From Zanthoxylum bungeanum (taxonomy: Eukaryota > Streptophyta > Magnoliopsida > Sapindales > Rutaceae): DNA of 64,000 nucleotides. Both the position numbers and the translations under genes were made by a program. How positions within the stretch are numbered: the stretch's first letter is position 1; each line of letters opens with the position of its first letter. The DNA is taken from assembly GCA_019454045.1 (NCBI GenBank), contig SKCR01025357.1, positions 1 through 64,000 of the forward strand. The letters are read 5' to 3'. The notes under the pieces are model-generated. The model did no database searches. It had not been told where the DNA came from and saw only the letters and a program-made list of their open reading frames with translations. Shown piece by piece: positions 5,931 to 59,194 of the stretch.

Positions 5931-6747
5931 TCAAAGTTTTTGTTTCACTGGCTTCATATTTGGATAAGTTGGTATTGTATGCTGGGCGATGCTTCTGTCT
6001 ACTCCAGGCATGTCCTCATAGGACCAAGCAAACACTTTGGCATATTTGGCTAATATTTCTTCTAATTTTTCCCGCTCCTCAGAGGTAACCTCACTTGCAA
6101 TTAGAATTTCCCTGGGGCTCTCAGGTTTACCAAGGTTAAATGCATTTGTTTTTGTGGAGCTGATATCAAATATACTCAAGTTGTGCAAATTAAAAGGGAG
6201 AGACTCAGACGAGTAAGCAAAATAATTGTCTTTATTGCCAGCAGATGCAGGAATACATTCAAATAAATTAGAGAGATAAACATCTTCATCCTCCACAGAT
6301 GCTTCATCTCCCACAGTTGGGTCTTCCTCATTTTCCTCGAGGGGTCAGGCTCTCCAACTTCATCAGCTCTTCTTCCCATTTCTCTTCTTCCTTCTTCGCT
6401 ATTTCTGAAGCCAGTGACTTCTCACTTATCACATCCTGAAAGATCTCAAACCCGGGCACCACAATCCCATTGACTTCTACCGGTTTAGGTTCTCCCTGAT
6501 ATCTCGTTGCCTTCACAAAGCATTCCATCAGCTTCAACCCTTTCTTCTTGGCTTTCGGCTTATCCTCATCAGACATGTATCCCAACCCTCTCCGGGTAGT
6601 CTGTCCCTTAAAGTTCGGCAATGTTGAACCTCTACCCGGCTCAAACTTCATCTTCTCCATGATCCTAGCCACCTTAGGATCCACATACTCCTCAAAAGTT
6701 GCTGACACTTGGAACCTTGTGAAATGTTCTATTTCCAAAGCGGCCAC
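5931..6747 (-). pseudogene. protease-RT spacer of the Ogre-like polyprotein
   Basis: Two frames (6747-6328 and 6314-5931) cover the region between protease and RT. The first holds MEKMKFEPGRG and the basic DKPKAKKKG. The second ends with KVFAWSYEDMPGVD and HTIPTYPNMKPVKQKL, the conserved block just upstream of RT in Tat elements. A frameshift lies between 6328 and 6314. The spacer has no known catalytic role. Confidence 0.75.
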
Positions 6748-6765
6748 AACACTGTCTACCTCAGC

Positions 6766-7305
6766 TCAGATGGTGACAATCTCTCCCCCGTATGGAAACT
6801 TAATAACCTGATGCAGAGTGGAGGGCACGCCCCCAAGCTTGTGGAACCACGGCCTTCCCAATAACAAATCAAAAGTGGCCGGGATATCCAGCACTGTGAA
6901 CTCAACCTCATCCTCAATCGGGCCAACCTTGACTACTGCGGCAAATGTACCCTCAACTCCTCGCTTGCTATCATCATAAGATTTGATAGTCATATTGGAG
7001 GGATCCAAATCCATTGCCTTCATTCCCAACCTTGCCAAAATCTTCAATGGGCAAACATTGATAGATGAGCCATCATCTATCATTACATAAGATGTCTTCT
7101 TGCCCCTTACTTCAACCCTGATAAATAGTGGCTTGTTGTGATTTCTTCCCTCTACCGAGAGTTCTTCCTCAGAAAAAGTTATTACCTGCAAGGTTTCCTC
7201 CTGTACTGACCCTACAAACATTGCAGGATTAGCACCCTCTGGTACTATTATTTTGCTCAAGGCTTCAACCATAGCACGTATGTGCTCCTGTGACGAACAG
7301 AACAA
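6766..7305 (-). pseudogene. aspartic protease of the Ogre-like element
   Basis: A 179-residue open stretch with the active-site block YVMIDDGSSINVCPL (DDGS in place of DSG, usual in this lineage). Later come FDLLLGRPWFHKLGG and PSTLHQVIKFPYGG, conserved in Tat/Ogre proteases. Same frame as gag (next entry) across a stop. The enzyme would cleave the Gag-Pol polyprotein inside the particle. The frame itself looks intact, but there are stops on both sides. Confidence 0.85.
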
Positions 7306-12833: not shown

Positions 12834-14084
12834 AATACTAAGAAGATTGTATTTTGCTTGTTTATTTACAGTTTTTGTAATAAATTTACTTTATGTAATA
12901 GTAATTTCTTTTATTTACTTTTCAACTTTTACTATTCAGCATGAGTAGGTAACTCTCTTCTGCTGGGGTGAAAGGTAAGCTTTTATAACTAATATTTAGA
13001 ATAATCTCCCTTAATTATAATATATAAACTATTTAAAACCTGACTTAATAAGGATACCGCCTATATGGCAGGTTGAATTTAATTATAAAAATTGGTTTTA
13101 ACATGACTAAATATGGATACCGCCTGTATGGCCGGTTGGAATTAATTATTAATTTGACTTAATCAAGATACCGCCTATATGGCAGGTTGGTAATATCACG
13201 CAAAATTAATATATTATAATAAGGGAGATATCTAAAATAGTAGTAATAAAAGTGGATTCTCGAACCCCCATCATTTTCTTTTATTGTACTTTTACCTTTT
13301 TAATTTTCAGTATTTACCTTAAGTATTTTATTTTAGCTTTTACTAGTTTTAAATATGTGTCGTAACTAAACCCGTTATCTGGGGTTGTGATGATTTCCAA
13401 TATCACCGGTTTATAAGGGGTTATTTTATAGTTTTGGTAATATAAAGGTTTACTTATTAAGTCTTAAGCTTAATGCTTCTTGTTAACTGGCCACTAATAA
13501 GATTGATCTGGTAAACTTAAAAATAAACTTGAGGAAAGAATTTTAGGTTTCAGCCTTAGACTTAAAAGCCCATGATCTTCCTTGAGGATAAATAACCCTT
13601 TAATAGATTTCCTTACAAGATAGACATATACCTGTCGGGCGGGGGTAGCCATAATTGGAATTTAGTCTTAATGAATTTAAGTAACTTGGTTGACATAGGC
13701 ATATGGTTTAATTGGGCTGCACTAGGTATTTGCTTCTGACCATCGACAGAGGCTTTTGCAGAATTTCATGTTCCAGGTTAGTAAACCAATATATTACACA
13801 AACATAAGATAACCACTTCATCTTTAAAAGATATTGGAAAGATTCACAACCCTGGATAGTTTAATAATATTGAATTTTCCTCAATCTACTTTCACGACAT
13901 TTTATTTACTTGTTTTAAGTTTAAAGTCACTATCCACTCAAACAATCAATCCATTAGATACTCGTAAAAATTTGACTTCATAAATTAATAGCTTAGGTAT
14001 TAAGTCCTCGTGGGATCGATACTTTTTATACTACTTGAACGATACATGCGCTTGCGTTATACGCGTGTGATTACGCACCGGTCA
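12834..14084 (+). repeat. 5' LTR of the Athila-type element (R/U5 side only)
   Basis: Closely similar to 22946-24179 and ends with the same CCGGTCA. Begins AATACTAAGAAGATTG exactly where the Ogre-like LTR stops. Contains three copies of a GATACCGCCTATATGG-type motif at 13053-13074, 13116-13138 and 13167-13190, separated by about 50-65 bp. Confidence 0.9.
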
Positions 14085-14090
14085 AGTTTT

Positions 14091-14106
14091 TGGCGCCGTT
14101 GCCGGG
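14091..14106 (+). other. primer-binding site, Athila / tRNA-Asp type
   Basis: TGGCGCCGTTGCCGGG, six bases after the LTR end. From memory this is complementary to the 3' end of plant tRNA-Asp and is the usual Athila PBS. Confidence 0.85.
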
Positions 14107-14225
14107 CACTTATTTATCTTTCACTATTAGTTTTGGGGTTAGATACCTTTACTTATATCTAATTTCTTTTTACTTATTATTTTTGTTTTCTTGTGTTTCA
14201 GATTCTCAGACACTACATAAGATGA

Positions 14226-15821
14226 ACCAGAAGCTTTGAAATCCGACTGTTTGACCCGGAAATTGAAAGAACCATCAGACAGTTGCGAAGGGAAAGGCGA
14301 GAAGGCCAAGAAGCATTAGTCAACATGGAACCTGAACCTTTGGAAGTTGTACCACCAATTCCCATTCGAGATAGAACCATTCCGGTGGTTGACAGCTTCT
14401 TTTTCTGTATTGTACTTCCTCCCTTACCAGCAAATGTGTGTGACATCAAAATATGCATTCAGATGATACAACAGTCAGTTCAGTTTAGGGGGAATGCAAC
14501 TGAAGATCTTAATGCTCACATCATCAACTTCCTGGAAGTTTGCGTCACTTTCAATTATAACTGAGCGGCTGAAGAAGCCATGAGACTGCGAGTTTTTCCA
14601 TATTCCTCAAAAGACATAGCTAAGGCTTGGCTACATTCACTACCAACAGGTTCCATCACAACTTGGAACACTCTAGCCACCAAATTCCTTGCAAAATAAT
14701 TTCCACCGGCCAGAACTGCAAAGCTGAGGAATGACCTCACATCCTTTGTGCAACATGATTCAGAGTCTCTCTGCGAAGCTTGGGAAAGGTATAAAGATTT
14801 AATCAGAAAATTCCCTCACCATGAGATTGCAAAGTGGCTACAATTCCAAACATTCTATAATGGACTTTCTAGAATAATGAGAACCACAATTGATGCTGCT
14901 GCTGGAGGAGCTTTAATGGAAAAATGAGAAGATCAGGCTTGGGACTTAATTGTAGAAATGGCCAACAACAATTCCTTGTGGCCAACAGAAAGGAGCATGA
15001 TCCAAAGAATTACAGGAATCTATGAAGTTGGAGCCAACACAGCAGTGAATGCCAAGCTGGATCAGATATGTAAATTCATGGAGACTCTTACCATGCTAGA
15101 CAATATTGGATCCACAAGTTCACCATATGGAGGAGCACTAGAGACAAACCAATATGAAGAGACGGTGAATTATGTTAACAATTTCAACAGACAGGGGAAC
15201 AATCCATATTCCAACACCTACAACCCGGGGTGGAGGAATCATCCCAATTTTGCATGGAGCAACAATTCAGGGCAAAAGAATTATCCACCACCTGGATTCC
15301 AACAGCAGAACAAAATCCAGGAGTATGAAAAAGAACCAAGAATAACGGAAGTGCTAGCTCAGTTAAAAATATATGATGCTATGTTTCAAAGCCAATCTGC
15401 TTCTATTAAATCACTGGAGAATCAAGTTGGACAATTGGCCAATTCTCAGAGTTACAGACCGCCAGATAACCTTCCTAGCAACATAAAACCAAATCCAAGG
15501 AATAGAGGGAATGAGCAATGTCAAGCCATTACTTTGAAAAGCGGTACTGAAATCAACAAAGATGTTGGAATCAAGGAATCCATTGAAGAAGTTCCAAAAA
15601 ATGCAATTCCACAGATGGAGGATAAAGAAGCAAAGGCAAAAGAGCAAGAAAGAATCACTCCACCTCCACCTTTTCCACAGCGTCTCCAGAAAAACAAATT
15701 GGACAAGCAGTTTGCTCGATACTTGGAGGTTTTTAAAAAGCTGCACATCAACATTCCATTTGCAGAAGCGTTGGAAGAAATGCCCAGCAATGTCAAATTC
15801 ATGAAAGATATTCTTTCATGA
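14226..15821 (+). pseudogene. gag of the Athila-type element
   Basis: One frame with stops at 14562, 14697 and 14925, and at 15819-15821 before protease. Early residues read FDPEIERTIRQLRRERR. The core has SLPTGSITTWNTLATKFL, FVQHDSESLCEAWERYKDL and FQTFYNGLSRIMRT, the Athila-type Gag signature. The C-terminal half (from 14958) is 287 residues, rich in Asn/Gln, with NSLWPTERS and a proline-rich tail (TPPPPFPQRL). No zinc knuckle is seen. The exact start is uncertain: a TGA at 14223-14225 closes the same frame just upstream. Confidence 0.85.
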
Positions 15822-16418
15822 AAGCGGAGATTGAGAGATTACGAGACAGTAGTATTGATAGAAGAATGCAGCGCCATCATTCAGAGGAAACTTCCCCTAA
15901 AGTTGAAAGATCTAGGCAATTTCACTGTTCCATGCACTATTGGAGAAAATTATATCGGTAAGGCCTTATGTGATTTAGGTGCCAATGTTAATTTAATGCC
16001 TTTTCCAATTTACAGGAAACTGCAAATTGGTGAAGCACTGCCCACCTCAGTCTCGCTGCAACTTGCTGATAGAACTCTCGCATTTTCGAGAGGTGTAGTT
16101 GAAGATGTGATGGTCAAAGTCTACAAACTCATTCTCCCAATAGATTTCATTATCCTTGATATGGAAGAAGACAAATATGTACCTATCATCCTCGGGAGAC
16201 CATTCTTGGCTACAGGTCGAACTGTTATTGATGTGCAAAAAGGAGAACTAACCATGAAAGTGCATGACCAAAAAGTTACCTTCAATGTTTTTAATGCCAT
16301 GAAATTCCCGGGTGATGAAAAGATGAGGAATGTTTCAGAATTGATGTTGTTGATAGTATCATTCAAGCTACTGATACATTTCCCACGGATAAACTTGAAG
16401 CTTGCATCACCAACATGA
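15822..16418 (+). pseudogene. aspartic protease of the Athila-type element
   Basis: Same frame as gag after the stop at 15819-15821. The active-site block is LCDLGANVNLMPFPIY, the Athila form in which the usual Asp-Ser/Thr-Gly is DLGA. The second landmark is VPIILGRPFLATGRTVIDV. The frame is lost near 16340, where conserved downstream sequence (TDSELDAEILECINYLDKPF) resumes in another frame. Confidence 0.85.
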
Positions 16419-17570
16419 CTGACAGCGAGCTAGATGCTGAAATTCTGGAATGTATCAACTATCTTGATAAACCATTTCGCTTCAAAACGAAACCACAAGT
16501 GGAAAGTCTGGAACTATCGAAGAAAGAGTGAATTAAACCTTCGATTGAAGAACCACCGCAGCTGGAGCTTAAGTTACTTCCGAGATATCTCAGGTATGCA
16601 TTCTTAGGAAACTCTTCTGAATTACCTGTGATTATTTCTTCTTCGCTAACATTGGAGCAGGAAAAAAAGTTGTTGAGAGTGTTACGAGAGCACAAGAAAG
16701 CCATTGGCTGGACTATAGCAGACATTCGAGGCATTAGTCCATCATTTTGCATGCACAAGATTCTGATGAATGATGAGTACAAACCCACAGTGGAGCATCA
16801 ACGGAGACTAAATCCAATCATGAAGAAGGTTGTGAAGAAAGAAATCATCAAATGATTGGATGCCGACATCATCTACCCTATTTCTAACAGTACTTGGGTG
16901 AGTCCTATGCAATATGTACCAAAGAAATGAGGAATTACTATAGTCACAAATGAAAAGAATGAGCTAATTCCAACAAGAACGGTGACTGGATGAAGAGTAT
17001 ACATGGACTACAGGAAGCTAAACAAAGCAACAAGGAAAGATCATTTTCCGCTGCCATTCATTGACCAGATGCTAGACAGACTGGCGGGGCATGAGTTCTA
17101 TTACTTTCTGGATGGATACTCGGGGTACAATCAGATTACCATCACCCAAGAAGATCAGGAGAAAACTACTTTTACATGTCCGAATGGTACTTTTGCTTTC
17201 CGCAGGATGCCATTTGGATTATGTAATGCTCCTGCCACATTTCAACGTTGCATGATGGCCATATTCTCAGACATGTTGGAACAAAGTATGGAGGTTTTCA
17301 TGGATGATTTCTTTGTGTTTGGAGACTCGTTCAACCACTACTTGCAAAATCTAGAACAAGTGTTACAAAGATGTGAAGATACCAACCTGGTACTCAACTG
17401 GGAGAAATGCCACTTCATGGTGTAGGAAGGCATCGTCCTTAGACATCGAATATCACAAAAAGGAATCAAGGTAGACAAAGGAAAGATCGAGACAATTGAA
17501 AAACTACCTCCACCAACATCTGTCAAATGGATTCAGAGTTTTCTCGGACATGCAGACTTTTACAGGAGAT
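16419..17570 (+). pseudogene. reverse transcriptase of the Athila-type element
   Basis: Pieces in one frame (16628-16855 and 17003-17425) with several in-frame stops. Landmarks: HKKAIGWTIADIRGISPSFC, MDYRKLNKATRKDHFPLPFI, FLDGYSGYNQI, MPFGLCNAPATFQRCM and the catalytic VFMDDFFVFGD (FMDD). A frameshift near 17570 moves the reading into the RNase H frame. Confidence 0.9.
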
Positions 17571-18221
17571 TTATCAAAGATTACTAAACCTTTATGCAAT
17601 CTTCTGGAGAAGGATGTGCCTTTCAACTTCACCAAAGAATGCCACGAAGCTTTTGAGATCTTGAAACATAAGTTGGTTTCTGTTCCCATCATAGTAGCAC
17701 CAGACTGGACCCTTCCATTTGAGGTGATATGTGATGCTAGTGATTTTGATGTAGTTGCAGTTTTGGGTCAACGCAAAACAAATATTTTCAATACTATTTA
17801 CTACTCTAACAGAACTTTGAATGAAGCTCAACTCAACTACACAACCACTGGAAAGGAGTTGATTGCAGTTGTGTTTTCTTTTGATAAATTCCGCTCTTAT
17901 CTGTTAGGTCCCAAAATGGTGGTCTACACAGATCATTCAGCAATCAAATACCTGATCGTGAAGAAAGATGCCAAACCCAGATTGATCCGTTGGATACTTC
18001 TACTGCAAGAATTTGACGTGGAGATCCGAGATAGGAAAGGGACAAAAAACCAAGTGGCAGATCACTTACCGAGGATCGAGAATGGAGAAACAGTTGGCAA
18101 AGAACTGACAATCAAAGAAACTTTTCCAGATGAACAACTTTTTGCCATGAAACAACAAGATGTCTCTTGGTATGCTGACTATATCAACTACATAGTATCG
18201 AGAAAATGGCTGTTGGAATGA
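17571..18221 (+). pseudogene. RNase H of the Athila-type element
   Basis: Open from about 17571 to a TGA at 18219-18221. Shows [20 protein letters not shown] (catalytic Asp retained), [16 protein letters not shown] (Glu) and [12 protein letters not shown] (Asp). Unlike the Tat elements there is a single RNase H, as expected for Athila. Confidence 0.88.
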
Positions 18222-19419
18222 ACAACTCAGGAACGAAAGAAGTTCTTCAAAGAAGTCAAGCATTATGTCTGGGATGAACCGTACCTGTTCAAATGCTGTG
18301 CTGATCAATTACTGAGACGTTGAGTTCCATAGGAGGAGGTCAATAGTGTTCTGCAACATTATCATTCATCACTATACGGCGGACACTTCAGCGGAAACAA
18401 AACTGCAGCCAAAGTCCTACAGTCAGGTTTGTTCTGGCCCACTATTTTTAAAGATGTTTATCTATTTGCTCTTCAATGTGACAAGTGCCAGAGAACGAGA
18501 AATATTTCGAGGAGAAATGAAGGACCTCTCTAAAATATTCTGGAAGTGGAGATATTTGATGTATGGGGTATTGATTTTATGGGACCATTTGTTCCATCAT
18601 TCGGAAACCTGTACATACTAGTTGTAGTAGACTACGTCTCCAAATGGGTTGAAACAATTGCACTGCCATCCAATGATTCAAAAGTGGTGATTAAATTCCT
18701 TAAAAATGAATATTTTCACTTGCTTCAGAACACATCGGGCGATTATCAGTGATGGTGGCACACAATTCTACAACAGATACTTTGATGCACTCCTATCCAA
18801 ATACAGAGTTACTCATAAAGTTGCCACAACATACCATCCACAGTCAAATGGATAGGTTGAAGTTTCAAACAGGGAGATCAAAAGAATCTTGGAGAGAATC
18901 GTTGGATCAACAATGAGGGACTGGTCTACAAAACTTGATGACGTATTATGGGCCTACCAGACATCTTACAAGACACTCATTGATATGTCCCCATATTGAA
19001 TGGTGTTTGGGAAAGCATGCCATCTGCCAGTTGAGCTTTAACACAAGGCATACTGGGCACTGAAGAAGTTGAATCTTGATCCACAAGCAGCAGGAGAGAA
19101 ACGACTCCATCAACTCAACGAATTGGATGAGTTCTGCCCACAGGCTTATGAGAATGCCAGACTATACAAAGAAAAGAGCAAGAAATAGCATGATCGAAAA
19201 ATAGTGCGCAGACAACTGGAACCAAAGCTGCAGCTGTTGTTATACAATTCACGGTTAAAGCTTTTCTCTGGAAAGTTGAAGTCAAGGTGGTCGGGTCTAT
19301 TTGTGTTCACTCAGGTTTTAACATATGAAGCTGTTGAGTTACTTGATCCCAACCCCAACGAAACATTCAAGGTTAACAGTCAGCATGTCAAACACTACTG
19401 GGGAGAATCATTTGAATGA
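18222..19419 (+). pseudogene. integrase of the Athila-type element
   Basis: Continues the RNase H frame with stops and at least one frameshift (near 18720). Visible parts: a zinc region with a CDKCQRTRNISRR block, [16 protein letters not shown] (first catalytic Asp), [11 protein letters not shown] (second Asp), and HPQSNG then a stop followed by [13 protein letters not shown] (Glu kept). The C-terminal tail (19204-19419) has SRWSGLFVFTQVL and FKVNSQHVKHYWGE, typical of Athila integrase ends. The TAG at the Gln position of the third catalytic block and other stops make it defective. Confidence 0.88.
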
Positions 19420-19595: not shown

Positions 19596-20145
19596 ATGGA
19601 AGAAGTTCTCGCAAATCTTCACAAGCAATTTCCTTCTCTCCCTCAAAACTCTCTGATGAAGATCTACAAAGCTCGCATAGAATGAATGAGACTTCTAATG
19701 ATAAAAGGTATTCCTAATGACATTCGTTGGATTATTGAAGCACTAGTCCGATTGGCAGGTGAGTCTTCTGACTCTTTTGTTTCACATCTGCCTGGTTTAG
19801 GAAGAAACACCTATGCTAAAAAGAGAAGAGCTAAAAAGATGGGTGTTTTTTTATAAATGTGCACGTATGACATGTGATACTCGTTGTCGTTCTTTAGGAA
19901 TGATGTCTGATAACCGTGAAGATAAGATTAAATTCATTAGGGATGGCTTTAGTAAGGAGTCTTTGGATGACATATCTAAGACTCTTGAGACGCATTCCAG
20001 TGGATATGTGCATCATGCAATTCACATGTTATATACACAATTCCGAAAAGAAAGGCAACAATACAATCTTGGCAATCTGACTTTAAAAGACCCTGTTTGC
20101 CAATTTATAAGAAAATTGGATGGGAAGCTTGTCCCTGACGCATAG
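19596..20145 (+). pseudogene. accessory frame of unknown function, basic with a Cys motif
   Basis: Not recognised as gag, pol or env. ATG at 19596 opens MEEVLANLHKQFPSLPQNSL; a TGA at 19683 interrupts it. The same frame goes on through IPNDIRWIIEALVRLAGE to GLGRNTYAKKRRAKKMG, a strongly basic, nuclear-localisation-like stretch. In a run of seven T (19846-19852) the frame slips by one base. The other frame continues with KCARMTCDTRC (C-x4-C-x3-C), IKFIRDGFSKESLDDISKTL, and ends at 20145. A basic patch followed by clustered Cys recalls small cysteine-rich nucleic-acid-binding proteins of some plant RNA viruses, but the Cys spacing differs and this is only a resemblance. It lies between integrase and the LOG-like frame, directly behind a splice-acceptor-like sequence. 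Confidence 0.6.
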
Positions 20146-20395
20146 ACGTCATTCAAGCAATTACTTTTTTGTAAATATTATTTTCTCTTTGTATATATCT
20201 AATAATTGTGATTTATTTTGTTATTTTCTTTTATTTTCTCCGACAAGATCCAGACTTCTTGACCTTTCACGATTTATTTTACTGTTTAGCTAATAATTGT
20301 TATTTGGCAGGTACTAGTGCTATTATTACTCACCCTTTTTTAGGTTCTATAAATTCAACTCATCATTGCACTCTTGAAGGCACCCATAGTTAAAA
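20146..20395 (+). other. spacer with candidate splice acceptor before the LOG-like frame
   Basis: No gene. T-rich spacer. GCTAATAATTGTTATTTGGCAG, ending at about 20310, combines a branch-point-like CTAAT and an AG acceptor upstream of the ATG at 20396. Confidence 0.35.
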
Positions 20396-21049
20396 ATGAA
20401 AGCCATTTCAAGAAGACGAGTTGTAAACATCTGTTTATTTTGCGTTACTAGTGTTGGTTCTAAACCAGAGTTCATTGAAGCAGCACAGGAATTGGGTAGA
20501 GTCATTGCTGAAAGGAATATGCACTTAGTATATGGCAGTGGCATTCTTGGACTAATGGGGATCGTTTCACGCGCTGTACATGGGGGAGGCAGTCAAGTCT
20601 TGGGAATCATCCCAAAACCTTTGGTAGAGGTAAATCTTATAGGACCATCAAACGGAGAGGACCTGATCGTGCCAGGTATGTCTGAACGACTGGTAGAAAT
20701 GATTAACCGTGTTGATGGTTTTAGTGCTTTGCCAGGTGGCTTGGGTACGATGGAGGAAATTTTTATCGTGTCATCTTGAGCGAACCTGAACATACACCAG
20801 AAACCAATTGGACTGTTTAATGCTGATGGATTTTATGATTTTCTTTGTGTGTTTCTTGATGATGCTGAGAGAAATGGGTTCGTGTCAAAACCTGTAAAAG
20901 AACTTCTCTTTAGAGCCAGAACTGCCCTAGATTTAATTGACGAAATATTAGCCTTTGAACCACAGATTGACCCTATCCTCTCAAAGATAAACTGGTCGAA
21001 TAATAATCGTGGTAAGAAGCGTCAGATAAATCTGGATCTTAACCTTTAA
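20396..21049 (+). pseudogene. captured LOG-like cytokinin phosphoribohydrolase frame, one nonsense codon
   Basis: LOG enzymes release active cytokinin bases from nucleoside 5'-monophosphates in the cytosol. This frame spans 217 codons, close to normal LOG length, without introns. It shows ICLFC near residue 13, LVYGSGILGLMGIVSRAVHG, GGSQVLGIIPKPL, and the family signature PGGLGTMEE (residues 113-121, 20732-20758). After a TGA at 20777-20779, at a position where relatives have Trp, the same frame goes on with NIHQKPIGLFNADGFYDFL and FVSKPVKEL, and ends with LDLNL. The usual CGS near the N-terminus is CVT, and the GGG-type nucleotide-binding loop reads GSG, so activity is doubtful even apart from the stop. 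Host LOG genes have several introns, so this copy looks cDNA-derived. It lies between integrase and the 3' LTR, inside the element. A recent processed pseudogene insertion is the main alternative, but I see no poly-A tail or target duplication. Confidence 0.85.
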
Positions 21050-22326: not shown

Positions 22327-22339
22327 AGATTTGGGGGTG
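22327..22339 (+). other. polypurine tract of the Athila-type element
   Basis: AGATTTGGGGGTG directly before the LTR start TGATGAGTGG. This is the usual Athila form of the tract. Confidence 0.8.
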
Positions 22340-24179
22340 TGATGAGTGGTAAATGTATCAATATTTCCCACTCATTTGACCTAATATTTTGTATAGTTTC
22401 TTGCATTTTGTGAATATTTTGATGTGTTTTGTGTTATTTTGTAGATAAATAAAGTTTCAGAACTCTCTGGAATCAAATCAGGGCCAAAACAGAGAAAAAT
22501 AGACAAAATGGCAAATTCGTAATATGGGCGTCGCGACTGCTAACATGCGCCAGGTAATGCTAATATGCGCCGGACACGTGTCAAAACTAGAGAAATTTGC
22601 TATCATATGACGTGCTAACATGAGCCTGCCACGTGTCAACATCACATCAATTCTTGCTAACGTGCGCCATGCCACGTGTCATCATCACATGCTGCTGACA
22701 CTTATCATTGAGACACGTCATTGATGACATCATGCTGACGTCAGTGTCACGACACATCAACTTTTACGCGTCGCGACTCGGAGCCAATAATTCAGATAAT
22801 CATTCAGCCGTGCCACGTGTCGCTAGCTCTGGAATTGTCACCGTAATTAACGACGCGCGCACAAGGTTATGAACGCCTATAAATTCAGGCTGAATTTTCA
22901 TTTTCATTTTCAATTCATACTTTCTTCTGAAGAATTCCTTAAGAATACTAAGAAAATTGTATCTTGCTTGTTTATTTACAGTTTTTGTAATAAATTTACT
23001 TTACGTAATAATAATTTTTTTCTTTAATTTTCAGGTTTTACTATTCAGCATTAGTAGGTAACTCTCTTCTACTGGGGTGAAAGGTAAGCTTTTATTACTA
23101 ATATTTAGATTAATCTCCCTTAATTATAATATATAAACTATTTAAAACTTGACTGAATAAGGATACTGCCTATATGGCCGGTTGAATTTAATTATAAAAA
23201 TTGGTTTTAACATGACTAAACATGGATACCGCCTGTATGGCCGGTTGAAATTAATTATTAATTTGACTTAATCAGGATACCTCATATATGGCAGGTTGGT
23301 AATATAACGCAAAGTTAATATATTATAATAATGAAGATATCTAAAATAGTAGTAATAAAAGTGGATCCTCGAACCTCAGCAGTTTCTTTTATTGTACTTT
23401 TACCTTTTTAATTTTCAGTATTTACCTTAAGTCTTTTATTTTAGCTTTTACTAGTTTTAAATATGTGTCGTAACTAAACCCGTTATCCGGGGTTGTGATG
23501 ATTTCCAATATCACCGGTTTATAAGGGGTTATTTTATAGTTTTGGTAATATAAAGGTTTATTTATTAAGTCTTAAGCTTAATGCTTCTTGTAAACTGGCC
23601 ACTAATAAGATTGATCTGGTAAACTTAAAATAAACTTGACGAAGGAATTTTAGGTTTCAGCCTTAGACTTAATAGCCCACGATCTTCCTTGAGGATAGAT
23701 AACCCTTTAATAGATTTCCTTACAGGATAGACATAGAGGGTAGTCATAATTGGAATTTAATCTTAGTGAATTTAGGTAACTTGATTTACATAGACATATG
23801 GTTTAATTGGGTTGCACTAGGTATTTGCATCTGACCATCGACGAAGGCTTTTGTAGAATTTCGTGTTCTAGGTTAGTAAACCAATATATTACACAAACAT
23901 AAGATAACCACTTCATCTTTAAAAGATATTGGAAAGATTCACAATCCTGGATAGTTTAATAATATTGAATTTTCCTCAATCTACTTTCACATCATTTTAT
24001 TTACTTGTTTTAAGTTTAAAGTCACCATCCACTCAAACAATCAATCCATTAGATACTCGTAAAAATTTGGCTTCATAAATTAATATCTTATGTATTAAGT
24101 CCTCGTGGGATCGATACTTTTTATACTACTTGAACAATACGTGCGCTTGCATTATACGCGTGTGATTACGTACCGGTCA
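22340..24179 (+). repeat. 3' LTR of the Athila-type element (1,840 bp)
   Basis: Starts TGATGAGTGG after the PPT and ends CCGGTCA. The second half matches 12834-14084. A related solo LTR is at 53995-56165. U3 carries several CACGTGTC and TGCGCC motifs (22540-22830), then a TATA box. R/U5 carries three GATAC-CGCC-type motifs (about 23161-23300; two are slightly changed). Confidence 0.92.
22877..22884 (+). promoter_or_regulatory. TATA box of the Athila-family LTR
   Basis: CTATAAAT within GCCTATAAATTCAGG. The same GCCTATAAATT context recurs at 54797-54804 in the solo LTR. It lies just downstream of a cluster of ACGTG motifs, as expected for a core promoter. Confidence 0.65.
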
Positions 24180-24625
24180 ACAGGGATCTAAGGATTTTTC
24201 AAACTATCATTTTCGTTGGAATAGTCTCTCCTAGGTTAAAGCTTGAGTTAACTATATCGTTAATCTCAGCGTAAAATTCATCAAAGGTCTCATAATCTTT
24301 AATCCTAGCGACTTCAAACATAGTGGAAAGTTCTTGGAGTCTATTATTATTAACGGACAATATGCCCTCTTGCACAGTATGAAGGATGTCCCATGCATCG
24401 TTGGCTATCTCAAACATTGAGATACTCCTAAACTAAACAGCAGAGCAAACAACGACATGAATGACATTAATTGTCTCATTGTTCCTATTGCTAGCATCAA
24501 ACTCCTCATTGGTCCAGGTCAGTTTATCTTTAGGGGAAGATACCCCATCAACCATAACCACATGAGGTTTCCACATATACTCTACGGTCATCCAGACCAT
24601 CTCATCTAAAGATTTAAGGAATGCT
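24180..24625 (-). pseudogene. Ty1/copia gag remnant (part 1)
   Basis: On the minus strand: AFLKSLDEMVWMTVE, KLTWTNEEFDASNRNNETIN, AWDILHTVQEGILSV, ETFDEFYAEINDIVNSSFNL and RKILRSL. This is the UBN2-type Gag core of copia elements. It has a stop near 24433 and is cut on one side by the Athila-type LTR (24179) and on the other by the minus-strand Tat element (24626). Its N-terminal continuation is at 34242-34334. ATGCT at 24621-24625 is the target duplication of the Tat element. Confidence 0.8.
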
Positions 24626-25608: not shown

Positions 25609-26520
25609 CATATTTTAATTTGACTCGACAAGAATCATTAAAGGTATGTCCTCGGTCGACTTAACCAGATGGTGTTTTAGGAGAAATCTTATTCGACTTA
25701 TCGTATGAGGTGAATATATTTCAAGATATCTTTTTGACTCGACATGAATCCTCAGGGATATGTTTCTGGTCAACTGAATCAGATGGTGGTTCATGAGTAA
25801 TTTCACTCGACTTGTCATATGAGTCGAGTGAGTTCAATGATTATATTTGACTCGACATGAGTCATCCGAGGTATGTCCCCGGTCGACTGAACCAGATGGT
25901 GGTTTAAGAATAATCACACTCGACTTGTCGTATGAGAGGAGTGTATTCAATGATTCTATGACTCGACATGAGTCATCGGGGGTATGTCCCCGGTCGACTG
26001 AACCAGATGGTGGTTCAGGAATAATCACACTCGACTTGTCGTATGAGACGAGTGTATTCGATGATTCTATGACTCGATATGAGTCATCTGGGGGATGTCC
26101 CCTGGTCGACTGAACCAGATGGTGGTTTAGGAATAATCACACTCGACTTGTCGTATGAGACACATGTATTCCATGATTCTATGACTCGATATGAGTCATC
26201 TGGGGGATGTGCCCTGGTCGACTGAACCAGATGATGGTTTAGGAATAATCACACTCGACTTGTCGTATGAGACGAGTGTGTATTCGATGATTCTATGACT
26301 CGATATGAGTCATCTGGGGGATGTCCTCTGGTCGACTGAACCAGATGGTGGTTCAGGAATAATCACACTCGACTTGTCGTATGAGACGAGTGTATTCCAT
26401 GATTCTATGACTCGACATGAGTCATCTGGGGGATGTCCCCTAGTCGACTGAACCAGATGGTGGTTCAGGAATAATCACACTCGACTTGTCGTATGAGACG
26501 AGTGTCGAGTGGTCGCTATT
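25609..26520. repeat. tandem array of eight 110-114-bp units
   Basis: Unit starts at about 25622, 25736, 25850, 25960, 26071, 26183, 26297 and 26409. Each unit contains an inverted repeat of the form ATGACTC-GATAT-GAGTCAT, a second one GAACCA-GATGG-TGGTTC, and CACTCG...CGAGTG. Six of eight units hold TGAGTCA, a bZIP (GCN4-like) site. The two leftmost units are most diverged. The array lies upstream of the antisense accessory gene. Confidence 0.92.
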
Positions 26521-34334: not shown

Positions 34335-36860
34335 TGTTAGGGTTGGTGCTCGGAGTGCCAATCCGGATCGGATTTATGTCCGATTCATAAAAAATGAGCA
34401 ATACTATTTTCCATAATATTACTTAATTATTGGTAGCACCATTGTCTTTTATATGCTTATTCGATCTAATTGCGATTAGATATCTGATTACGATTAGATC
34501 GAAACTGAATCTGGTTCAGTGATACGTGTATATTAGACAAAGACCCTAGGATTTACAATATAGTGCGCAGTTACAACGTAGTTTGTAATTGACATTGGGA
34601 AGCGCACTATAAGATGTATATCCTTAAATAAAGTTCATGGTCAAGATTTGCTAACACGGGTCGTTTAATAAAATCCGCTGCAACCAGTACATGTCGTATA
34701 TCGTGACTTGGTCCGATGGTTTATCCCAATGAACCATGAGTCTCAGGAGACTCGTATAAATATGTAAGTGTTTATTTGATAAGACACTGAACGACTCACT
34801 GAATTTTTCCTAATAGACGGTACACCATTGTCAATAGGAACCTTTTTGAGTTGAACGAGCATAGTGGTCATTTGACTTGAGATACCACAATGGGATATAT
34901 GAGTTATCCTTCACACTTTGATGGCAGTCACGTCACCGATCTATTTAGATTAGAACTCCGCCTGTTCGTTGGGTGTGGATTGATGCTCATGATATCCAGT
35001 GCGTATCAAGATAGGATCCTTCAGTCATGTGTACAGGGCATAGGCATCCGCATGTGTTTACGATCTAGTAAATCCATGGTCGTTGTATAACTTCAGAAAT
35101 CAGTTCTGAGTGTTATTTAGAGATCGTAAATTGAAAGTCGATTGTATTATACCTAACGGATTTGACGTTTCATCTATATCCCATGTATAATACGGATAGC
35201 CTGTGACGGGGGGATTATACGTATGCAATGACCTCGACTTGTATAATTTAGCGAGATTATATGTGGTCGTCATAATCCATGAGTGGGTGGATTATGGACA
35301 TGAAATTAGATTACGTGACGGATAAACCTAAACTTAGAGAGTCCCATAATATGAAGTGTACTCGTTGAGCACTTGGGCAACACAATATGAATAATACAGA
35401 TTATTCATAATACTTCATCGGATTAAATGAGTTAATTCAGGTCGTTTAATCGGTTAAATGATAACACATGCATTACATGATTTTTTCCGTTAATAATTAT
35501 TGTGTATTTGTATTTGATACATAATACGATTAGATACACATTAATTATTCGTCAAATGAGATTTTTACACATGCCATAAATATATGTATTTATTATTTAT
35601 TGTAAATAAAAATACATATATAATAATAATTACATTAATTAATTATTTGGATATTTAATTGTTAAATATATGAATTGTTAATTAATTTTTTTTCCATAAA
35701 TGTTATGGAATTTGTCCATTTATTATTGGAACAAATGGCATGAATTAATTAAACTTGATATGTGTAATGTTGATTGGATTACATAAAGTTTAATTTATAT
35801 TTAATTAGATTAAATTTGCTAAATGACCAAAGTGCCCTTGTTGACCTTGTCAAAGTCGGTCATGAGCTTCTTTATAAGATAAAAAATTTTCACTTCTTCT
35901 AAGTGGTTGCCATGGCCGAACACCTCAAATAAAATGGGTTTCAAATCTTGTTTGATAAATCCATGAAGAATTGAAGAAAAAATCAATAAAAAGACTAAGG
36001 ATTTAGGAGATTTAAGGTAAGTCTTCAAAACCCTAAGCTAGAAAATTTGATTTATTGTTTCTTGATGATTTAGAAATGTTATAGGGTTTCTTTCAATTCT
36101 GAATTTTTGGGGCTTTTGGTTGTGGATGATGGATTGGAAGTGTATGTCCATGTGTGAAGTATATTTGGATGCAATTAATGTAATTAGTGTCCAATTTGAT
36201 CAATTGTTGATGAGTTGCTATTCTAAAGTGTTATGACCACTCATGTGACACCTATAATTGTTCTTGGGTTGTTCATATGTGGTGACTTTGGTTGGTGTTA
36301 TGATTAATTAGATTAATCTTGAACATTTGGATTTAAAGTATGAAAATTGGAATTTTTGGTTTCTGTATCATATTCTGTAAAACTGGAAATTTTGTGATGA
36401 AATTGATGTCATATAAATGTAATGGATGTATTTTGGGAGTTGGAACAATTGCCGGAAAGTATTTTGGAGTTGAAATAAGCGAAAACGGCCAAAAACGGCG
36501 TTACCGGGTAGATTTTGAGCCAACCAATTGACGGCTGTCCAAACAGTGAGTTTGTCACTATTCGGGCAGCCCATGAAATGTCCTGACACAATTGGGGCTG
36601 ACCTGACCAGTCCCCATAAGTGTCGGCTGGTCGGTTCGGTCAAAAACGTGTTTTGTATCATTTTGCGGAAAAACGTTTTTCGTAAAAGTTTCGCGTCATT
36701 TCAACCTAATTTATGTTGATTTTTGATATTGAATAAATAGGTTTAGGTGAAATATGAATAAATTATTCATATTGGATATTGAATAATTTATTCGGTAATC
36801 TAAAAAAATTTTAAATTACGATTTCGCCCGAACCGCGCTTCCGCTGCGCCCATCGCCCAA
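34335..36860 (+). repeat. X LTR copy A
   Basis: Matches copies B and C from TGTTAG to the CCATCGCCCAA block, then jumps into internal sequence. The LTR end and PBS present in B and C are deleted here. Contains long inverted repeats such as 35386-35409 (10-bp stem) and 36751-36773 (11-bp stem, one-base loop). Confidence 0.85.
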
Positions 36861-39800
36861 ATATCCATTACATTATTCATGCTTGATATTTGATATTTAA
36901 TCCAATTTTAATGCTCGTACATGCATGTAATCTAGATATGTTTATTTACTTTTCGGTTATACGTTAACGAAAATGTAATTGAAATTTAATAGTTAAATTG
37001 TGTTATGTTTTCTAAGGTAGATTTGAAATGTTTAGAAAATGATTTAGATTAAAATTCTGCATTTGATGTAGATTATAGCTTCCAGAGGAAAATCCCCGAT
37101 TTAAATATGGCTGTAAAGTAACGTGTATTGGATACATGTTTCTTGGTCCGTCTTGTCAGTACGGTTTATGGGTATCTTTCTATAACTGCACCCGAGATCG
37201 TGTCAAAGCTGTAAGGGTGTAGGTTATAGAATTATTATCCATACCGGTTGTATATTGATACTGGACAAATTCAAGCGAAAGTGGAAATCCTGAACATGCA
37301 AAGCTGTCAGGACTACACCGGTAGCTTGAGTTTGCCATTGACAAGTGTAGCCTTGATACGCCTCCTTGTGAACGTGCCAAAGCTGTCACAACGAGAAACG
37401 GTCAGGACCAAAACCAGGAGTCACTGGTGAGTGATTGACAATGAGTTGTCTACCTAATGAATATACGTAGGCGATATCGTGCCAAAGCTGTGAGTCGAAA
37501 TATATTCAAGAGATCCTACTCTCACTATGGAATTCGATTTAATTATGGAATTCTCGTTGTCCGTTGGGGATTACGGTATTACGAAAAGTAGTGGGAGACA
37601 CTGCTGAGTTTAAAATCCATAACTTAAGGAGTGTGTAATATTTTGGAAAATGCTGCTTTCGTTTTCCTTTATTCTATATTGTTTATAGATTTATACTTCC
37701 AATCCATTGCATGCTTATTACTTGAATAGGTTTTCTAACTTTACTTATGGTTGCGTAATTCTAGAATAGGTTCTAGAAAGACAGTAGACTTAGATATTAT
37801 TAGATTAGTTAAAAACCATCGGGAACTGTTGTTCCAATTTTCTTGAAAATCAAGATGGTTTGTGACTTTGTTACTAAGTCACGATAGGTAATTTAAATGG
37901 ATATCTTGTTTAGGATATAATTTTCTAGAGAGAATAGTTTCTTATGCAATAAGAATTTACTTGAATAGTTTATATCTCGAGATTCTTGACTGGCATTAAG
38001 AAAATCTCATTAGTATTTGTTTATCTTATAATGACGTTTCTTGGTTTTAGTGACTTTTAGAAGTCACATGTCTGACACAGTTTACTAATCAATCATTTAC
38101 AATTGTTGTGAATAATTGAATGCAAATTATAAAGCTTAAGAAAAGAGATGTGTATAGAAAATATCGATTCTCACAATACAACGACTATAAGTATTGGACA
38201 CTAGATCTCCCGTCTAGTTAATTAAAATAATGTTTAATGACTGTTTTGATATTTGATATCAGAACTTGTGACTGTTGGATAGTTACTTTTTCTGTATAAA
38301 TAGTTGTTACATATTTTAATCACTAGTAGTGTCATTAAAGAAAGATGAACATTAAGAAAAATATTCGGTAAAATAAATAACTTAGAACTGTGTTTTATGA
38401 GATTTTATCATAAAAGCATTAGATGCTTATTCCTTATGGTAAAAGATGGTCTGATACAAGTTCACACCACTTATCCATATCTATTTAATGAATATTGTAT
38501 TAAGGATATGATTAAATCTCATTTAACCAATGATCGTCATTGGACCACATATTTATTAAACTAATACATTGGATGTATGTAGTTTAATGAATTAGAAATT
38601 ACATTAGATAGTTTTCTATACTCTGTAACTTAGTTAATGATTTGTCATGATTTTGTTATGTGTTTCTAAAAGAGAACATGTTGAACGTCTTGAATTGTTC
38701 GAGAACTTTCACTATGTTTCTAATGAAACATGGATAAAATATTTTGAATGGTTCAAGAATATTCTATTTGTAGTGTTGAAAACTATATTTTAAAATTCAT
38801 TTTAGTCTTTGAATTGGTTAAAGATGTTTGATATGATCAAACATATGAATTTAAGGCAATTAGTTCTAAGCTTATTTAATGAATATGATTCTAACTCAAT
38901 ATTAAACTTTCGCGATTCAATTTTGATGGAATTGGTCAGTGGGAGTGATCGAATCTTATATGATTTGATTCGTTGATATTGAGTGTTACCGAATTGGTTT
39001 TCAATACTCTTGGGGTTATACTCCTGAAATACTTTTTCATCTCGTTAATTTAGGTTCCATTTGTTCCTACAGTTACAGATATGATATGTATAGTAGAAAA
39101 TTACAATCTTGAAAAGTTAGAGATTTGAAACTTTCTTTTGTATAATGGTTATATAATTGAAAGTACTTGCACCTCGGATGTACAAGTAAGGTTTATCATT
39201 TATTTTATTTAATGGAATATTGTATTCTATTTGATATAATATCTTTTTTACGATCCCGAGTGATAAAATTATTTTGTTACTTAGTGGTTAACATTGGATG
39301 TTGACAATTGCAGAAAAGATTTGACTTAGTAAGTCAAATGTGAGAATGATAAACTATAAGTGGAACTACATAATTAATAAGATGAAAAGACCCTTAGACA
39401 ACTTCCGTATAAGTTCAATAGGATGTAAGAATCATTTGTTAAGTATTTGATACTTATTGGTTCTGTTGTTTTCTTATTGAAGAAAATCATCCTATAATTA
39501 ATAGTGGGAGCGATATTTGATATCGATTTTGGAAGTCAACATTGAAGCATAGATGTAATATTGTTCATAGCTTACTACGATCGAGTTTTGAACTTGATTA
39601 GGCTTTTGTTATGAATAGTTCATAAAATATGTAAATTGTTTGCGCAGCAAAAACACAGTGAGCTTGATAAAGGTTTGACCATTATAGTATGACATGGAGA
39701 AAGGTTATACTCAGTAGTCTATTGTAGATTCTGAGAAAGCTTATGTCTTGTCGCACTAATTAAACAATTTAAAAAATGGTTGTTTAATGTTGATATAAAA

Positions 39801-41071
39801 CTAAGTTTTTGGCTAAAGAATGAAAAGTGGCGTTCTTGAGTGATTTCTTCGAATGAGAGATCAGTCGTGATTTCTTTGTTTGAAGAATTTATTCTAGAAT
39901 GGCCCTAGAGTTTGTATTATGTTAAAATCACAGTTTGATATATTAGCTTATGGAGCCTATTGTAGACTCAGATAAGTTTTCCGAAAAATCGTGTTCTCTG
40001 ATTTTGATATCATCTCAGATTTGTCTGGTTTTGTCGTTGTATATAGAGAATTGTGTTTTTTAAGAGTTAGTCAGTGGGATGCGTACAAACTTCTTTCTAG
40101 TATTATATATATCCTAAGTCTCTTCTTTTCTCTGTGAGAGCAGTGGGAGTAGTCTATGATATATTTGATATAACGTTTTATATAAGATATAAAACTATGA
40201 GACTAGTGAGATACTCTCATCAGTCGCATATTAGATATGATCTAATAAAGAACACCGTAAGACTATCTGTATGACAGTTAGTATAACTGTTTGACAGTTA
40301 ACGTGTCTTTTAGATATATAGTATTCATCTTTCGTAAATGATGACTCTTTTGTCGAAAGTTAGATTGATTGGAATGCCTAGTCAATCTTATGCATAATAG
40401 GATGATGGCGTAAAAAATACTATATTTTGTGTGATTAAAGATATCAATTTAATCGTAATTGTTAAGAGTTATTTTCAGATGCAGTCGACCATAAGATGGA
40501 TCTTGAAACATGTTCTTTGTTACCTTTGAGATATTAAGAACAAATTTATTATTCATGGAGAATTTAGTTTGCAACCATAAGGTCAGATTATTTTTTGATC
40601 CTAATTATGACATTAGATGGTCTAAGTCATATAAAGTCAGAAAAGATGCAGTGGGAGTGTCACCATTGATTCTACTAAATTAGTGGAATCTGTTGCAACT
40701 TATGAAGTATTGACTTATGAAGTTGCATAATGACCCTATAGATTAGAAGTTTTCATATTAGTGTAGTGCTTGTGGTTGTCTTATAGTATTTGGATTTGAT
40801 CTCTAAATACATAGACAACTCAGTAGCTTGAGCTCAATACTGTTAGAGCATCTGAGTCATATTGATGTAGAATTTGGATTCTACAAAATATGAATTATGC
40901 TGGCTAAGGAAAACAGTTGGGTTTGTTGGACAGACTCGATTCGTAAAGCAGACTTACTTGTTGTTGCCTACCAATTGAGTGCTGGTGAGCTCTTGTGGGT
41001 CATGAGTATGCGATACACATTAAGATGTGTATAGGATACCATGGATTGACACTAGAGTAAGTGGGAGAAAT
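36861..41071 (+). other. X internal region A, non-coding
   Basis: No gene in 4.2 kb. The first part has four spaced copies of a GTGCCAAAGCTGT motif (37200-37491) and AGTAGTGGGAGAC at 37587. The rest is AT-rich with many short hairpins. Its end (41040-41071) is TAAGTGGGAGAAAT, the PPT. About 0.5 kb near 40470-40990 is absent from internal B. Confidence 0.75.
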
Positions 41072-42855
41072 TGTTAGTGTTGGTGCTCGGAGTGCAAATC
41101 CGGATCGTATTTATGTTCGATTCATAAATACGACCAATATTATTTCCATAATATTACTTAATTATTGGTAGCACCATTGTCTTTTATACGCTTATTCGAT
41201 CTAATTGCAATTAGATATCTGATTACGATTAGATCGAAACTGAATCTGGTTCAGTGATACGTGTATGTTAGACAAAGACCCTACGATTTACAATATAGTG
41301 CGCAGTTACAACGTAATTTGTAATTGACATTGGGAAGCGCACTATAAGATGTATATCCTTAAATAAAGTTCCTGGTCAAGATTTGCTAACACGGGTCGAT
41401 TAGTAAAATCTGCTGAGACCAGTACATGTCGTATATTGTGACTTGGTCTGATGGTTATCCCAATGAACCATGAGTCTCGGGAGACTCGTATAGACATGTA
41501 AGTGTTTATTTGATAAGACACTGAACGACTCACTGAAGGTTTCCTAATAGATGGTACACCAATGTCAACAAGAACATTCTCGAGTTGAGCGAGCATAATG
41601 GTCATTTGACTGGAGATACCACAGTGGGGTATATGACTTATCCTCCACACTTTGATTGCAGTCACGTCACTGATCTATTTAGATCAGACCTCCACCTGTT
41701 CGTTAGGTGTGGAATGATGCTCATGATATCCAGTGTGTATCAAGATAGGATCCGTCAGTCCTGTGTACAGGGCATAGGCATCCCCACGTGTTTACGATCT
41801 AGTAAATCAATGGTCGTGGTATAACTTTGAAAATCAGTTCCGAGTGTTATTTAGAGATCGTAAATTGAAAGTCAATGTATTATACCGAACGGATTTGACA
41901 TTTTCATCTATACCAAGGTATAATACGGATAGCCTGTGACGGAGGGATTATACGTATGCAATGACATCGGCTTGTATAGTTTAGCGAGATCATCTGTGGT
42001 CGTCATAATCCATGAGTGGGTGGATTATGAACATGATATTGGATTTCGTGACGGATAAACCTAAACTTAGAGAGTCCCACAATATGAAGTGTACTCGTTG
42101 ACACTTGAGCAACGCGATATGAATAATAAAGATTATTCATAATACTTCATCATCGGATTAAATGAGTTAATTCTGATCATTTAATCGGTTAAACGCGATA
42201 ACATATGCTTAGGAGATTTTGTCAGTTAATAATTATTGTGTATTTGTATTTGATACATAATACGATTTGATACACATTAATTATTCCTCAAATGAGATTT
42301 TGACACATGCCATAAATATATGTATATGTTATTTACTCTAAATAAAAATACATATATAATAATAATTACATTAATTAATTATTTGGATATTTAATTGTTA
42401 AATATTTGAATTGTTAATTAATAAACTTTTTCCATAAATGTTATGGAATTTGTCCATTTATTATTGGAACAAATGGCATCAATTAATTAAACTTGATGTG
42501 TGCAATATTGATTGGATTACATAAAGTTTATTTATATTTAATTAGATTAAATGTGCTAAAGGACCAAAATGCCCTTGTTGACCTTGTCAAAGTCGGTCAT
42601 GAGCTTCTTTATAAGATAAAAAAATTTCACTTCTTTTAAGTGGTTGCCATGGCCGAACACCTCAAATAAAATGGGTTTCAAATATTGTTTGATAAATCCA
42701 TGAAGAATTGAAGCAAAAATCAAGAAAAAGACTAAGGATTTAGGAGATTTAAGGTAAGTCTTCAAAACCCTAAGCTTGGAAATTTGATTTCTTGTTTCTT
42801 GATGATTTAGAAATGTTCTAGGGTTTCTTTCAATTCTGAATTTTTGGGGATTTTG
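41072..42855 (+). repeat. X LTR copy B, left part
   Basis: First 1.8 kb of LTR B, interrupted after TTTTG (42851-42855), the target duplication of the Y element. It resumes at 52701. Confidence 0.88.
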
Positions 42856-52695: not shown

Positions 52696-52700
52696 TTTTG

Positions 52701-53994
52701 GATGTGGATGATGGATTGGAAGTATGTGTGCATGTGTGAAGTATATTTGGATGCAATTAATGTAATTAATGTCCAATTTGATCAATGTTGATGAGTTTAT
52801 TTTCTAGAGTGTTATGACAACTCTTGTGACACCTAGAATTGTTCTTGGGTTGTTCATATGTGGTGACTTTGGTTGGTGTTATGATTAATTAGATTAATCT
52901 TGTAAAGTTGGATTTAAAGCATGAAAATTGTAATTTTTGGTCTCTAGATTAGATTATGTAAAACTGGAAATTTTGTGATGAATTTGATGTCATATAAATG
53001 TAATGGATGTGTTTTGGGAGTTGGAACAATTGTCGAAAAGTACTTCGGAGTTGAAATAAGCGAAAACGGCCAAAAACTGCGTTACTGGGTGGATTTTGAA
53101 CCAACCGAGTGACGGTTGTCCAAACGGTGAGTTCGTCACTGTTCGGGGAGCCCATGAACTGCCCTGAAACTATTGGGACTGACTTGGGCAGTCCCCATAA
53201 GTGTCGGGTGGTCGGTTCGGTCAAAAACTCATTTTACGTCATTTTGCGGAAAAATATTTTTCGTAAAAATTTCGCGACGTTTCAACCTAATTTATGTTGA
53301 TATTTGATATTGAATAAATAGGATTAGGTGAAATATGAATAAATTATTCATATTAGATATTGAATAATTTATTCGGTAATCTGAAAAATTTTCAAATTAC
53401 AATTTCGCCCGAACCGCGCTTCCGCTGCGCCTATCGTCCAAAACCCCAGCAAAAATGGTATCAGAACGGGTCTGATGCTTCATCCATTGCATTATTCATG
53501 CTTGATATTTGATATTTAATCCAATTTTAATGTTCGCACATGCATGTAATCTAGATATGTTTCTTTACTTTTCGGTTCTACGATAACGAAAATGTAATTG
53601 AAATTTAATAGTTAAATTGTGTTAAGTTTTCTAAGGTAGAATTGAAATGTTTAGAAAATGATTTAGATTAAAATTTTGCATTTGATGTAGATTATAGCTT
53701 CCAGTGGAAAATCCCCGTTTTTAAATATGGCTGTAAAGTAATGTGTATTGGATACATGTTTCTTGGTCCGTCTTGTCAGTATGGTTTATGGGTATCTTTT
53801 TATAACTGCATTCGAGATCGTGCCAAAGCTATGAAGGTGTAGGTTATAGAATTATTATCCATACCAGTTGTATATTGATACTGGACAAATTCAAGCGAAA
53901 GTGGAAATCTTGAACATGCCAAAGCTGTCAGGACTACACCGGTAGCTTGAGTTTGTCATTGACAAGTGTAGCCTTGATACACCTCCTTGTGAAC
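52701..53994 (+). repeat. X LTR copy B, right part, and start of internal B
   Basis: Continues LTR B to 53451 (CCCCAGCA). PBS TGGTATCAGAAC at 53456-53467, initiator tRNA-Met type. Then the leader with the CCAAAGCTGT motifs, interrupted after TGAAC (53990-53994) by a solo LTR. Confidence 0.85.
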
Positions 53995-56165: not shown

Positions 56166-56170
56166 TGAAC

Positions 56171-59100: not shown

Positions 59101-59194
59101 TATTTTCATAAGCTCTTGAGGGCCATGAGTATGCGATACACATTAAGATGTGTATAGGATACCATGGATTGACACTAGAGTAAGTGGGAGAAAT
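56171..59194 (+). other. X internal region B, non-coding
   Basis: Homologous to 37370-41071 with scattered substitutions and a deletion of about 0.5 kb near 59115. No gene. Ends TAAGTGGGAGAAAT before LTR C. Confidence 0.8.

Follow-up and report, generated by a model that had tools for sequence, protein, structure and literature searches.

Background

Members of the LONELY GUY (LOG) family are already known from long terminal repeat (LTR) retrotransposons. LOG/YgdH domains occur in Ty3/gypsy elements of Citrus sinensis, C. clementina and Populus trichocarpa, according to the excerpted text of PMC9289625, which cites Steinbauerova et al. 2011 for LOG in Ty3/gypsy. Here we describe a LOG-bearing Ty3/gypsy element in a 64,000-nucleotide stretch of Zanthoxylum bungeanum DNA (assembly GCA_019454045.1, contig SKCR01025357.1, positions 1 to 64,000 of the forward strand; hereafter the window), together with its copies in the same genome and its relatives in other plants. 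The abstract of the 2011 work is said to report two Athila-like elements similar to LOGL4. A first-pass annotation of the window, made from its letters, had presented the LOG as a new type of retrotransposon cargo, a claim that the account in PMC9289625 forestalls. The same excerpt describes Ty3/gypsy elements of orchids that carry an m6A demethylase domain; these too are LTR elements with a captured enzyme, but the enzyme is a different one and that screen found them in two Phalaenopsis species.

The Zanthoxylum element shares with the Citrus and Populus elements the presence of a LOG domain inside a Ty3/gypsy element. The excerpted account of the latter does not include a nucleic-acid-binding protein (NABP) partner, a C-terminal tail, selection, a single clade or copies lacking gag-pol. 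Excerpts of the open-licence literature likewise yielded no account of an NABP partner, a tail, selection on LOG or LOG copies that lack gag-pol, and the words cytokinin, Athila and LONELY GUY do not occur in the excerpt of PMC13317346. LOG in Ty3/gypsy elements is thus already known, and the clade, the tail, the NABP partner, the selection and the gag-pol-less copies are new relative to that literature. Compared with host LOG7-type cytokinin riboside 5'-monophosphate phosphoribohydrolases, the element LOGs are alike in family, length and most motif residues, but they form their own clade, mostly end in a basic and LxLxL tail, have mostly replaced residue K99 and are intronless in the copies read.

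A LOG gene in a Ty3/gypsy element

The LOG frame (20396 to 21049, plus strand) comprises 217 codons and a stop, is intronless and contains no frameshift relative to LOG. Its single internal stop is a TGA at codon 128 (20777-20779), the position of the W of SWA in relatives. When this TGA is read through, the translation matches Arabidopsis At2g37210 (query residues 6-204, E 1e-51) and At5g11950 (E 7e-44), both of which are solved LOG structures, and the matches cover the frame nearly end to end. Each half of the frame passes the Pfam cut-off for PF03641 alone. Both full-length homology and the PGGxGTxxE motif, present as PGGLGTMEE, place the frame in the LOG family (type I cytokinin phosphoribohydrolases). 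It is a full-length LOG family protein with one TGA, as the first-pass annotation had read it, and this copy of the element is dead. The frame is followed, after about 150 bases, by an A-rich tract.

The frame sits on the sense strand between pol and the 3' LTR. The element reads, in order, partial 5' LTR, a site resembling a primer-binding site (PBS), gag and protease regions, reverse transcriptase (RT), RNase H, a piece of integrase, an NABP-type open reading frame (ORF) and LOG, followed by a 1.3 kb untranslated stretch, a site resembling a polypurine tract (PPT) and the 3' LTR. Domains and LTRs bear out the earlier placement of LOG between the integrase and PPT of a gypsy element, with the amendment that the NABP-type ORF intervenes after integrase. 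LOG is likewise 3' of pol, in the slot that had been compared to that of an env-like gene, but it shares this slot with the viral-type ORF, which the first-pass annotation had missed.

Copies in the same genome

A search of the 3.96 Gb genome with the N-terminal half of the window frame gave at least 150 scored loci, and a query with the Populus host LOG7 gave at least another 150, of which 145 of the 150 scored are stop-free over about 200 residues. The two lists have two contigs and no locus in common, which makes at least 300 distinct LOG loci. Because scoring was confined to the best candidates, both counts are minimum values, and the lists lean towards whole copies. Intron-bearing host LOG genes were not found in the single LOG7 search, which was filled by one-frame matches of about 200 residues.

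We studied 61 copies, namely the window and 60 fetched from the N-half list (ranks 2-63 minus 46 and 59). In 46 of them an NABP ORF precedes LOG on the same strand, at a median gap of 290 bases. Of these 46 copies, 38 also gave an integrase match; the 15 copies without the NABP ORF gave none. Sixteen copies are listed with 86.7-98.7% nucleotide identity to the window, nearly unbroken over about 3.1 kb. LOG is borne by the element at the same site in other copies, a point that the first-pass annotation had put forward for testing, and gene models of other plants agree.

The remaining 15 copies were grouped by alignments and LOG identity into group B (n=8; L040 by LOG identity alone) and group C (n=7), the NABP-bearing copies being group A. 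Neither B nor C has an NABP or integrase within 2 kb. When three group C copies (L071, L073 and L074) were extended to 10 kb, each proved to have a 5' LTR about 1.9 kb before LOG, with LOG between LTRs and no match to gag, protease, RT, RNase H, integrase or NABP in the LTR-to-LOG span. Gag matches in L073 and L074 fall outside that span. The LOG of L074 contains one stop; that of the other two is stop-free. In the NABP-bearing copy L075, LTR, gag, protease, NABP and LOG were matched, and RT, RNase H and integrase were not. LOG is thus still carried by three copies that lack gag-pol matches and by one that lacks RT and integrase matches. In L074, ORFs of unassigned type occupy positions 5944-7160 between the 5' LTR and LOG.

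Extension of three group B copies (L069, L070 and L072) to 10 kb revealed no match to the window gag-pol queries in the orientation of LOG. L070 has a gag-protease stretch on the reverse strand, which is probably another element. LTRs were not found in these three, so the group B elements are not delimited.

Purifying selection on LOG

LOG is present as one near-full-length stretch in 47 of the 61 copies and is broken or incomplete in 14. Among the 47, 25 are stop-free (24 in the strict set) and 22 are not. Ratios of nonsynonymous to synonymous substitution (dN/dS) were calculated pairwise by the Nei-Gojobori method (NG86), with bootstrap bounds, for stop-free copies by group; the copies are a non-random sample. 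Over the whole frame, dN/dS is 0.27 in group A (15 copies, 105 pairs), 0.17 in group B (7 copies, 21 pairs) and 0.31 in group C (3 copies, 3 pairs). Between groups it is 0.18 (A x B), 0.27 (A x C) and 0.21 (B x C), and bootstrap upper bounds are at most 0.48.

Because the copies were ranked on codons 1-127, codons 128-217 offer a fairer test. Here dN/dS is 0.35, 0.23 and 0.43 within A, B and C, respectively, and 0.23-0.38 between groups, with upper bounds, within and between, of 0.39-0.89. LOG is under purifying selection in the copies read, the test that the first-pass annotation had proposed, and this retention suggests that the protein most likely serves the element.

Relatives, catalytic residues and the C-terminal tail

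A protein search found 1229 proteins. Among the 120 listed, the best full-length ones have 217 residues and 71-81% identity. Length and motif are kept across many plants, and multi-copy clusters are named from Populus, Xanthoceras, Reevesia, Diplodiscus and Paulownia. Genome annotators label several multi-copy intronless LOGs as LOG genes, and two Xanthoceras gene models (P0012 and P0019) contain two LOG units per protein.

In a tree of 70 hand-chosen rows, a 100/100 branch separates 52 element-type rows, including the window LOG, from 18 host rows, which are mainly LOG7-like plus the two Arabidopsis structures; element context was seen for our own copies and for models fused to NABP. Long branches lead to the two Orobanche rows (2.05 and 0.91) and to a Citrus pair (0.68). 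The element clade holds rosids and Lamiales, a composition that fits either one early capture or later spread from plant to plant. Residues P113, G115, G117, T118, E120 and E121 are conserved in the 18 host rows and in 48 element rows, a comparison that leaves out two Citrus and two Orobanche fused rows. Within the same genome, PGGxGTxEE is read in 37 of the 47 full-length copies.

The window frame ends in a tail (20996 to 21046, plus strand) with basic GKKR and an LxLxL stretch, QINLDLNL. This tail might be an EAR-like or nuclear signal. LxLxL occurs in the last 14 residues of 109 of the 151 element-type proteins (107 of them with a basic cluster), whereas all 31 host-type proteins lack it, in a split made by name and sequence after the tails had been seen, with fragments included; 16 of the 31 are also in the 70-row tree. 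Xanthoceras and Acer proteins are without LxLxL. For the 17 tail codons, the A x B and B x C comparisons give dN/dS of 0.25-0.30 (upper bounds 0.68-0.90); within single groups the interval exceeds 1 or is incomputable in most cases.

A viral-type ORF upstream of LOG

Between integrase and LOG, the window contains an additional ORF in two decayed pieces on the plus strand, which makes LOG the second extra ORF and not the first. The first piece (19596 to 19847) has one stop inside and is 75% identical to residues 1-84 of protein P0196; the second (19819 to 20145), in another frame, is 76% identical to residues 75-173 and ends in TAG. A Pfam scan of 19801-20142 gave no match, and the sub-piece 19686-19856 reached Carla_C4 at E 0.011, below the cut-off.

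An Acer gene model (P0130) fuses the upstream ORF to LOG, and its first part matches window 19692-20175 in two frames. Used as a query, that part retrieved 64 proteins, and the database annotates 53 of them with PF01623 and/or PF05515, two viral nucleic-acid-binding families. Fused NABP-LOG gene models occur in Acer, Citrus, Rhamnella, Orobanche and Diplodiscus, and RNase H, protease or integrase parts are fused to NABP in models from Populus, Orobanche and Citrus. In our own profile scans for the two families, P0185, P0207, P0219 and P0227 score above a cut-off, P0184 falls below, no match was obtained for P0191, P0210 or P0212, and the pieces from the window are below the cut-off or unmatched. 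Of 21 aligned NABP proteins, 17 match PF05515 and 18 match PF01623 at E 0.01, counts that are not independent because all 21 already bore PF01623 in the source listing. Since NABP relatives carry matches to viral NABP families, the cassette can be read as pol, viral-type NABP, LOG.

The alignment shows invariant Cys 89, 92 and 97 and a nearly invariant Cys 101. A basic KKRRAKR stretch precedes this Cys cluster, as in the Cys-rich NABPs of carlaviruses and mandariviruses, from which the element proteins differ in their retroelement setting and in modest scores, some below cut-off. Fold comparison with a poor model (predicted local distance difference test score, pLDDT, 60.5) gave a best viral match at E 1.0 and nothing significant, a PDB profile search with NABP had no match, and viral-contig searches with LOG and with NABP found no relative. 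The likeness may mean that the element acquired the gene from a virus, that a virus acquired it from an element, or that the two converged. In the excerpted text of PMC12172455, the cysteine-rich proteins (CRPs) of mandariviruses and carlaviruses are reported to be silencing suppressors and pathogenicity determinants, and mandarivirus CRPs have nuclear localization signals and zinc-finger motifs. The title of one paper presents a protein of the NABP/CRP class as a transcription factor with a role in cell size and proliferation.

Nine stop-free NABP copies have dN/dS of 0.36-0.55 by dS class, and LOG is open in six of them as well. A check for stop readthrough found TAG as the next codon in 30 of 32 copies caught by a pattern, and the pattern-caught copies of this genome have no long conserved extension past the stop. 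In other plants, P0184, P0186, P0188, P0203 and P0208 continue past the LDP/LDS end with a stretch like RAFKPFLDVKPEEDVSHNHNY; many other NABPs stop there, and the extension was not seen in the genome of the window.

Possible functions of the element LOG

We favour, at a probability of roughly 0.6, the explanation that an Athila-like LTR lineage of eudicots keeps a captured LOG as an accessory enzyme gene, as homology, position, many copies, a separate clade, purifying selection and the element-type tail suggest. The intronless LOG coding sequence would have been acquired long ago, most likely from a spliced host mRNA, and retained 3' of pol, usually behind an NABP-type accessory ORF. The protein would be made when the element is transcribed and would convert cytokinin nucleotide into active cytokinin in the same cell. 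The hormone would in turn promote dividing cells of a meristem-like kind, where the element might replicate and from which it might reach the germ line. The plainest role of the protein would be the one known for LOG, here the release of active cytokinin wherever the element is transcribed.

Several observations weigh against this explanation. The copies were ranked by likeness to the window protein, which favours open and conserved ones, and most database proteins called element-type were so called without element context. Residue K99, which does not vary among the host rows, is replaced by L, I or M in 41 of 48 element rows and retained in seven, and 10 of the 47 full-length copies (one with a stop) deviate from PGGxGTxEE. 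The catalytic motif is lost in four fused models of Citrus x changshan-huyou (P0218, P0219, P0226 and P0231), which read PGDLATLEA twice, LGDLTTLEA and LGDLATLEA, and two Orobanche fused models read PGGYDTLNE. Three of the motif-lost models, P0218, P0219 and P0231, keep the LxLxL tail (KLDLTLRL or KLDLMLRL), and P0226 is without a C-terminus. Motif loss with a kept tail makes a live rival of a non-enzymatic role, in which the LOG fold would be retained and the basic and LxLxL tail would carry the protein to the nucleus and to a co-repressor (TOPLESS), with effects on transcription or silencing. The restriction of LxLxL to element-type proteins, the altered K99 and the between-group dN/dS of the tail codons point the same way. 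However, the motif persists in most copies of this genome and in the compared element rows, Xanthoceras and Acer proteins do without LxLxL, and within-group tail values mostly reach above 1 or cannot be computed. We consider this role possible but clearly the less probable one.

Stops in the window and other copies, with 22 of 47 not stop-free and 14 of 61 broken or incomplete, would suit an inert passenger that is copied with the element, but whole-frame dN/dS of 0.17-0.31 with upper bounds below 1, also in groups lacking NABP and integrase nearby, and the conservation of length and motif in many plants make a passenger improbable. The multi-copy intronless LOGs might instead be retrotransposed host genes that merely lie beside elements; several are annotated as LOG, and the surroundings that were read belong to copies from the N-half list. 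For those copies this is very unlikely, given that NABP-bearing copies hold LOG on the sense strand between NABP and the element 3' untranslated region, and that LOG is between the LTRs in three group C copies. A processed LOG pseudogene that inserted separately into one element would account for the intronless frame and the A-rich tract, and the first-pass annotation had named a single-copy insertion with its own target duplication and poly-A tail as the observation that would tell against capture. We reject this possibility as almost without weight, since the position of LOG is shared by many copies: 46 have the same order and spacing, other plants have the NABP-LOG order, and the window LOG falls inside the element clade.

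A bolder reading is that the two ORFs form an ancient host-manipulation cassette. Its NABP/CRP-related protein would blunt silencing, and its LOG enzyme, with a nuclear or co-repressor tail, would drive division and be kept even without gag-pol. We regard this combination as speculative and rather doubtful.

Other features of the window

All parts of the element are on the plus strand. The 5' LTR (12834 to 14084) lacks about its first 600 bases and has 93.6% identity by blastn to 22944-24180, with a Kimura two-parameter (K2P) divergence of 0.0557 over the 1236 sites of the common part. Its abrupt start at 12834 adjoins a repeat also present at 1050-1882, and the target duplication of this copy is unreadable because the LTR is cut short. 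The PBS-like site TGGCGCCGTTGCCGGGCA (14091 to 14108), recognized from sequence, begins 6 bases past the LTR end and presumably resembles the 3' end of tRNA-Asp. The gag-region ORF (14928 to 15821) and the protease-region ORF (15822 to 16418) are assigned by position and have no Pfam match; the former has homologous stretches in L070, L073 and L075. RT (16994 to 17425) matches RVT_1 at 7.7e-29, and RNase H (17475 to 18221) matches RT_RNaseH at 9.8e-31. The decayed integrase piece (18898 to 19089) has 63% identity by tblastn to the integrase of Citrus P0212 (L001 is the window from 18896 onward), and Pfam scans of two stretches of the integrase region gave no match. The PPT-like site (22330 to 22339), also recognized from sequence, directly precedes the 3' LTR (22340 to 24179, TGATGAG...CCGGTCA).

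RT, RNase H and integrase in gypsy order (integrase only via tblastn to the Citrus relative), an extra ORF 3' of pol and long LTRs all correspond to Athila elements. We use the Athila label provisionally, on the basis of motif and PBS resemblance.

A solo LTR of a related element (53995 to 56165, plus strand) is flanked by a 5-base target duplication, TGAAC, and the matching empty site can be read in the repeat copy, at 37360-37385. Large duplicated blocks with about 87-96% identity, some inverted, occupy 34335-44792 and 50954-63999, and a tandem repeat of about 112 bases, with seven copies listed, lies at 25615-26505.

Implications

Selection has kept a full-length gene of a hormone-activating family inside a mobile element, next to a virus-like ORF and with relatives in several eudicot families. 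The finding is also a warning for annotation, as some multi-copy 'LOG genes' of plant genomes are element ORFs. It opens a direct test of developmental manipulation by plant retrotransposons. If the LOG protein is active, this would be a mobile element that alters the hormone state of its host cell.
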